Shown: in pieces, positions 8,886 to 9,614 of the stretch
Layout: every line of letters starts with the position of its first letter
Position numbering within the stretch: the stretch's first letter is position 1
Assembly (NCBI GenBank): GCA_020049465.1
Contig: JAIFKS010000014.1
Span: 57,951 to 121,950 of the forward strand
Origin: a bacterium
Lineage (GTDB): Bacteria > Krumholzibacteriota > Krumholzibacteriia > LZORAL124-64-63
Length of the DNA: 64,000 nucleotides
Direction: 5' to 3'
Program-made: the position numbers and the translations under genes
Notes under the pieces: generated by a model
The model's input: only the letters and a program-made list of their open reading frames with translations
Database searches by the model: none
What the model was told of the DNA's origin: nothing

Positions 8886-9614
8886 TCAGTCCCGGTACAG
8901 CGCCTTGACCGAGCCCCAGGACATCGGCTGCACGTCGGTCTGTCCGTTCGGCGTGAAGGACAGCACGATGCCACCCCCGGACTGGACGCTGAACGTGCCG
9001 CCGTCGAGCGCGTTCGCGACACCCGAGACGTCGACGTAGAACCTGTCCGCGGCGAATCCCGTGATCGCCCCGCTCACGGTGGCGACCGTCCAGGACGAGG
9101 CGACACTGCTGTCGAAGTTCAGCATCGGGCCGGGGGCACCATTGATCGACGAGACGAGCACGATCGCGAACGGCTCGGCGCTGGTCGCGGTGATGTCGAG
9201 GTTCCCTTCAATGGCCAGACCGCTCCACTCGGCGCCCATGGCGCCGGTCGCGTCCTTCATCGCCACGCCCCACGTGCCAGCCGGCCCCCATGTCACATCA
9301 TTGGCGGTATTCGTCGTCGAGAACACCATCACGACATGCAGCGTCGACTCGACCTGGATGTTGTAGTCGCTGAGGGTCCGGCCGTCCTGCAGCGTCAAGC
9401 CGGCGAAGATCAATCGCTGCGTATTGGGCGCCCATCCGTTCTGCTCCTGCACTTTCACGCGCACGTTCTCGATCGAGTCCGAAGGCTCGACCGCAAGCGT
9501 GTACGTGTGGCCGACGAGGTCCTTCACGAAGATGTCCATGGCGGCGGCCGGAGCCGCCGTGAGCAGGACCAGGAGCACGACGGCCATGAGCATGCAGCAG
9601 GCAGAACCCTTCAT
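8886..9614 (-). CDS. Secreted ubiquitin-like protein with C-terminal beta domain and SWGxxKALYR tail
   Basis: 242 residues; ATG with GGAGGAG just upstream. Residues 1-25 are a signal peptide ending APAAA, so cleavage would leave a chain starting at Met26. Residues 26-98 align without gaps to ubiquitin: MDIFVKDL, VEPSDSIENV, QRLIFAG, DGRTLSDYNIQ and ESTLH. I count about 48 identities in the first 70 positions. Patch residues L8, I44 and V70 are kept (33, 69, 95); K6 and K29 are kept; K11, K27, K33, K48 and K63 are His, Arg, Gln, Leu and Val; Gly-Gly is Thr-Thr. Residues ~105-225 form a Ser/Thr/Gly-rich, probably beta domain with SWTVATVSGAITGFAADRF, a pattern I associate with secreted PEP-CTERM/autotransporter-like proteins. 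It ends MSWGSVKALYRD. No E1, E2 or JAMM gene is nearby. Function unknown. Confidence 0.9.
   Translation of the reverse strand: MKGSACCMLMAVVLLVLLTAAPAAAMDIFVKDLVGHTYTLAVEPSDSIENVRVKVQEQNGWAPNTQRLIFAGLTLQDGRTLSDYNIQVESTLHVVMVFSTTNTANDVTWGPAGTWGVAMKDATGAMGAEWSGLAIEGNLDITATSAEPFAIVLVSSINGAPGPMLNFDSSVASSWTVATVSGAITGFAADRFYVDVSGVANALDGGTFSVQSGGGIVLSFTPNGQTDVQPMSWGSVKALYRD

Follow-up and report, generated by a model that had tools for sequence, protein, structure and literature searches.

A predicted exported ubiquitin with a fused beta domain and phylum-wide C-terminal tail in a Krumholzibacteriota bacterium

The ubiquitin-fusion gene and its surroundings

The window, a 64,000-nt stretch of contig JAIFKS010000014.1, carries on its minus strand a gene in which a ubiquitin (Ub) domain is fused to other parts. 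The gene, its parts, and a second gene with a related C terminus are as follows.

8886 to 9614, minus strand: Ub-fusion gene, 242 aa (open reading frame and profile match)
9540 to 9614, minus strand: predicted signal peptide, residues 1 to 25, ending APAAA with Ub Met1 next (sequence, by eye)
9327 to 9539, minus strand: ubiquitin domain, residues 26 to 96, equal to Ub 1 to 71
9354 to 9386, minus strand: DGRTLSDYNIQ, equal to Ub 52 to 62, the best-conserved 11-residue run of the Ub domain in the window protein's family
8949 to 9326, minus strand: beta domain, residues 97 to 222
8889 to 8948, minus strand: C-terminal tail NGQTDVQPMSWGSVKALYRD, containing the SWGxxKxLYR motif (motif survey)
12393 to 13010, minus strand: second tail carrier of the window, ending SWGRLRALYR

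The start of the second tail carrier was set at an inner ATG, ahead of a signal-peptide-like stretch, and its product matched no Pfam family. According to Pfam, the neighbors of the fusion gene encode a sensor kinase, an aldo/keto reductase, a HAD hydrolase, and a FlgD-tailed protein, and metabolic, signaling, and peptidase genes lie further out in the window. The IS91 debris named in the preliminary description was not confirmed: the region holds three open frames without a Pfam match, and a three-copy interspersed repeat was found there instead. The repeat copies (9833 to 10046, 11434 to 11592, and 15556 to 15767), 64 to 85% alike to the reference copy, are distributed around the Ub and aldo/keto reductase genes. 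The sole tRNA-like match of the window (37895 to 37991) is far from the Ub gene, and no Rfam family reached its gathering score in the window. Misassembly of the contig, which had been raised as a concern, is unlikely, since proteins 67 to 80% identical over 92 to 100% of the query are encoded on four other contigs and the protein's own cluster comprises 4 member sequences from 6 contigs.

The protein matched the ubiquitin profile PF00240 with an E value of 3.7e-19 (68.7 bits; cutoff, 25.4), and a PDB search with it returned 337 distinct sequences at an E value of ≤1e-3, the 60 listed being mostly ubiquitins. The domain has the ubiquitin beta-grasp fold in the predicted structure. Roughly 48 identities over the first 70 positions had been claimed, and the ungapped alignment of residues 26 to 95 with human ubiquitin 1 to 70 gave exactly 48/70. 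The same alignment agreed with the claims that the L8/I44/V70 binding patch is kept and that K48, K63, and the Gly-Gly end are lost. R42, H68, K6, and K29 are likewise kept, the changes are K11H, K27R, K33Q, K48L, K63V, and R72V, and Ub 72 to 76 reads VFSTT, with Gly75-Gly76 absent. The lack of Gly-Gly also sets the domain apart from ThiS and MoaD, and neither was among the Pfam matches at an E value of ≤0.1. The E2 profile PF00179 had 0 matches in the genome and equally 0 in the controls. Judged by its sequence, the gene encodes a true ubiquitin in a form unlikely to be conjugable.

With 146 residues beyond Ub 71, the protein is not a free single ubiquitin domain; the fusion to an extra domain and a sorting-like tail is as first described, and the tail is a phylum-wide C-terminal motif. 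The mature protein had been predicted to begin at Ub Met1, in line with the signal peptide, called by eye rather than with a trained predictor, whose end (..APAAA) directly precedes Met1. Among the 80 other prokaryotic Ub domains described below, 75 showed the same arrangement under a crude rule (a hydrophobic stretch plus a −1/−3-type site ending exactly before Ub Met1), and the 5 that failed include one cut by a contig end (L023). We infer that the window protein is exported and cleaved before Met1.

Relatives of the fusion and the SWGxxKxLYR tail

Relatives were sought among 5.8 billion proteins, which gave 1,462 matches; most of the best 120, which were listed, are polyubiquitins. Among the matches listed, the closest are P0007, P0010, P0015, and P0020, each of 240 aa and 67 to 80% identical to the query, whereas P0055, P0092, P0099, and P0120 are more distant and have the same Ub plus beta domain. 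An alignment of the relatives was then used to scan a species-genome collection, where 218 places encoding a relative were found and the best 80 of the 218 were used. Two of these, both Verrucomicrobiota bins, have the same Ub-beta fusion: a Puniceicoccales bin (L002; 42% identity) and an uncultured Verrucomicrobia bin (L003; 39% identity). The beta domain also occurs without Ub, in a 590-codon open frame of a same-genus genome (L148; E value, 1.7e-18).

The more distant relatives share the whole architecture of the window protein as far as the tail. There they differ: PEP-CTERM-like ends are found in P0055, P0092, P0099, P0120, and L003 (by eye) and in L002 (NCBIfam), whereas the window protein ends SWGSVKALYRD, which is SWGx[IVL]Kx[LIM]YR with one extra D after the R, and an SWG tail is carried by P0001, P0007, P0010, P0015, and P0020. 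In a FastTree phylogeny of the Ub domains (160 rows, 72 columns), which included 70 of 164 selected polyubiquitin rows plus human, counted as eukaryotic because each has at least two Ub domains, the window family was one group (support, 0.951). The five SWG-tailed proteins formed a clade (support, 0.991) nested stepwise within the members with PEP-CTERM-like ends (supports, 0.818, 0.818, 0.888, and 0.951).

The tail is common in the lineage. The arrangement W-G-x-[hydrophobic]-[KR]-x-[hydrophobic]-Y-R-stop was searched at the DNA level with a pattern whose last codon, TRR, also admits TGG; a true stop was required in fetched loci. The pattern had 442 matches in 75 of the 80 genomes of the phylum and 295 in 36 of the 38 genomes of the window's family. 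Five frames matched in the window's genome, and the Ub-fusion gene, with its one extra residue, was caught by a second pattern instead. A reversed-pattern control had 0 matches in the phylum genomes, and the pattern itself did not match in any of 50 genomes from other lineages, which are the source genomes of 50 of the 80 Ub loci. All 64 fetched loci passed the true-stop check, giving 65 tails, and these 65 of the 442 matches were read as proteins (L083 to L146). They are mostly predicted to be exported and look unrelated outside the tail. A signal-peptide-like start was seen in 61 of the 65. The remaining frames of ≥120 aa in these loci, which serve as a loose control since spurious frames are included, gave 166 of 590. 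The K/R position was K in all 65, and some positions left free by the pattern were also biased: E at −13 (38), S/T at −10 (47), V/I/T at −16 (58), and S/A/G at −4 (57).

No NCBIfam model recognized the tail in five examples, literal forms of the SWGxxKxLYR motif were absent from the literature searched, and that literature described no sorting signal for the window's lineage. The tail resembles the PEP-CTERM/exosortase system in that a C-terminal signal on exported-type proteins occupies the same place in the fusion. It differs in that the SWGxxKxLYR tail has no hydrophobic helix: the window protein had no NCBIfam PEP_CTERM match at an E value of ≤0.1 and shows no such arrangement of PEP motif, hydrophobic helix, and basic C terminus. 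Furthermore, the exosortase profile PF09721 was found in none of the 38 genomes of the window's family, including the window's own (G000, 93.55% complete, in which a gap could hide one), compared to 29 of the 42 remaining genomes of the class, 28 of them above the cutoff. Because exosortase was not found in the family, we propose transfer from bacteria followed by a change of tail: a Ub-beta-PEP-CTERM gene would have arrived from another bacterium and then acquired the local tail. Such an exchange would make the tail look functionally equivalent to a sorting signal, and it likely sorts the window protein to the cell surface.

Ubiquitin fusions in other prokaryotes and apparent constraint on the domain

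From the 80 loci of the scan, L080 was dropped and L076 was missed by the ungapped test, its Ub frame being cut at the end of the stretch, which left 80 Ub domains in 78 loci. L080 (2847 to 3815), on a 4-kb contig assigned to a Nitrospinota bin, encodes a head-to-tail array of four near-perfect ubiquitins and is probably eukaryotic contamination. The 80 domains match ubiquitin at 49 to 69 of 70 positions; Ub Met1 is kept in all 80, at least 23 residues follow Ub 72 in 78, and Gly75-Gly76 is kept in 3. Pfam matches in the 81 fused proteins were Autotransporter (24), SLH (6), IPTL-CTERM (6), fn3 (5), OMP barrel (3), and Por_Secre_tail (2), and NCBIfam added choice-of-anchor U (5), T9SS type B (1), and the PEP_CTERM of L002; many of the 81 had no such match. 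The Ub-autotransporter, Ub-SLH, Ub-IPTL-CTERM, and Ub-T9SS proteins (among L004 to L081) resemble the window protein in that they mostly have a predicted signal peptide, Ub from Met1, and a surface-type part, but their Ub is mostly nearer to the eukaryotic sequence and their C-terminal parts are unrelated. Without L080, the record labels name 11 phyla, one of them archaeal, although some records are metagenome bins and may be misbinned. Five phyla are covered by named strains alone (Rhodoferax lacus, Cohnella sp. OV330, Conexibacter sp. CPCC 205762, Pontibacter sp. E15-1, and Rhodopirellula maiorica). Two Dyella loci (L073 and L024) encode a predicted signal peptide followed by one nearly unaltered ubiquitin that lacks any extension; Gly-Gly is kept in that of Dyella sp. 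OK004 (L073).

In 9 of 79 loci, the gene directly next to the Ub fusion encodes a conserved protein of roughly 335 aa, at the following places.

L013, 6783 to 7787; L014, 9246 to 10250; L015, 426 to 1436
L018, 200 to 1189; L019, 6786 to 7790; L020, 9234 to 10238
L022, 6813 to 7817; L032, 3609 to 4607; L079, 6814 to 7821

Three arrangements were seen: divergent upstream (six loci), same strand upstream (L019), and same strand downstream (L014 and L020). Eight of the nine adjoining fusions have barrel-like ends by eye, and that of L019 has an IPTL-type end. The protein had no Pfam match above the cutoff and no PDB match, and it was not found in the window; its motifs recall what we take to be a SET-type methyltransferase. 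It is a candidate partner of the displayed ubiquitin.

Within the window protein's family, conservation is uneven along the Ub domain. Identity to ubiquitin over Ub 52 to 62 in nine family members was 0.99, compared to 0.61 elsewhere, a stretch chosen after inspection of the alignment in members that were found through shared words. The same stretch scored 0.72 compared to 0.71 elsewhere in 74 polyubiquitin domains of similar divergence, 0.94 compared to 0.78 in the 17 most diverged other prokaryotic domains, which were partly selected by that word, and 0.96 compared to 0.90 in 26 domains from the other scan word. DYNIQ was intact in all 26 of the latter and T[LI]SDYNIQ in just 20. The conservation of 52 to 62 may be structural. 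In the nine members L8 and H68 are always kept, position 44 is always I or V, and V70 is kept in seven; conservation of the L8/I44/H68/V70 patch is high but not significant by shuffling (P = 0.09), whereas conservation of the lysines, 0.37, is below that of chance draws (P = 0.036). The conserved 52-to-62 run and the poorly kept lysines suggest a domain that gave up conjugation while one face appears, from the alignment, to be held under constraint.

Possible role and origin

The only relative with a tested function found in the literature searched is BfUbb of Bacteroides fragilis, which acts against bacteria (PMC5705921). BfUbb is described as having a signal sequence, lacking Gly-Gly, and being present in culture supernatant (PMC3352274), and as toxic to some, but not all, other strains of its species (PMC5705921). 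Sensitivity is reported to depend critically on Tyr119 of the prolyl isomerase of B. fragilis (PMC12396204, with reference to Jiang et al. 2024), and BfUbb is listed among antibacterial toxins (PMC12853789). Similar to BfUbb, the window protein has a predicted signal peptide that ends before Ub Met1 and no Gly-Gly (PMC3352274; PMC5705921), and both are identical to human ubiquitin at 48 of 76 positions (for BfUbb, PMC3352274); in a structural alignment with BfUbb (8hm2_B) identity was 45%. However, BfUbb is a free single domain with demonstrated antibacterial activity (PMC5705921), whereas the window protein also has a beta domain and a tail resembling a sorting signal.

We propose that an exported ubiquitin starting at the predicted mature N terminus is carried to the cell surface by the tail of the fusion and displayed there in nonconjugable form. 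Display is suggested by the equivalence of the tail to the PEP-CTERM-like ends of its sisters and by the many anchor types in relatives. The displayed ubiquitin would likely bind and inhibit a partner in neighboring cells, using the kept surface made up of Ub 52 to 62 and the L8/I44/H68/V70 patch. Antagonism is favored by analogy with BfUbb, and we put the probability of a surface-displayed, nonconjugable ubiquitin likely antagonistic to neighboring cells at roughly one-half.

Two other roles are possible but rather unlikely. First, as had been suggested, the surface ubiquitin could be a decoy or mimic that, once taken up by a protist or another host, engages that cell's ubiquitin readers in unconjugated form. 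Retention of L8, I44, H68, and V70 with loss of Gly-Gly, K48, and K63 would suit such a role, as would the origin of several relatives from rumen or gut bins and from Paracidovorax, which we take to be plant associated. Yet the titles of many other relatives name genera that are presumably free-living, a surface anchor alone gives no delivery to the cytosol, where ubiquitin readers sit, and Pfam recognized no secretion-system or host-interaction family in 15 other window proteins. Second, the role of ubiquitin might be solely structural, its great stability serving to cap the N terminus of exported beta-rich proteins or to help them fold. It does stand at the predicted mature N terminus ahead of unrelated C-terminal parts, and in a weak first model the beta domain resembles the end of autotransporter passengers. 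But a pure cap should require no near-invariant 52-to-62 run while 39% of the other alignment cells have changed, and it sits poorly with the 36 of 80 other domains in which 65 or more of 70 ubiquitin residues are unchanged (lysines, 0.93).

The gene had been thought to come from a eukaryote. Instead, the same Ub-beta fusion is present in other bacteria and the window branch is nested within PEP-CTERM-tailed relatives, which makes transfer from bacterium to bacterium simpler. A direct eukaryotic origin is thus disfavored by the shared fusion and not by the Ub tree, which cannot decide it: support at its deep nodes is slight or absent, these nodes do not part bacterial from polyubiquitin rows, and the best matches outside the family are nearly equal (L004 with 50/71, then a polyubiquitin domain and four bacterial domains with 49/71). 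A recent and direct eukaryotic origin, contamination, or misassembly would fit that lack of separation and the absence of PF00240 from 79 of the 80 phylum genomes, all except the window's own, a distribution from which the gene may also be transient. We consider it very improbable, since the fusion recurs in other bacteria, the gene bears the tail of its own phylum, its GC3 is 0.90, and its codon usage, proposed as a check for a foreign gene, is 0.68, inside the 0.51-to-0.81 range of 19 window genes. Finally, ubiquitin-like modifiers do occur in bacteria, but a working conjugation tag can practically be set aside here given the absent Gly-Gly, the lost R72, the predicted export, and the large C-terminal extension.

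In the usual account, ubiquitin is an intracellular tag of eukaryotes. According to the 2011 BfUbb paper, it was known solely from eukaryotes up to that time (PMC3352274). For the wider class, we hold as an evenly balanced proposal that a signal-peptide-ubiquitin cassette spreads across many phyla as an all-purpose surface binding module and is reanchored by the sorting system of each host, here through an undescribed SWGxxKxLYR signal. Protein sorting in a lineage whose genomes partly show no exosortase could be approached through the phylum-wide tail, and Ub 52 to 62 offers a concrete surface for the question of the partner. With a large set of bacterial ubiquitins predicted to be exported and anchored, BfUbb would become one example of a general strategy, and the similar predicted fusions encoded by many bacteria suggest that ubiquitin has a use outside complex cells that has been little studied.
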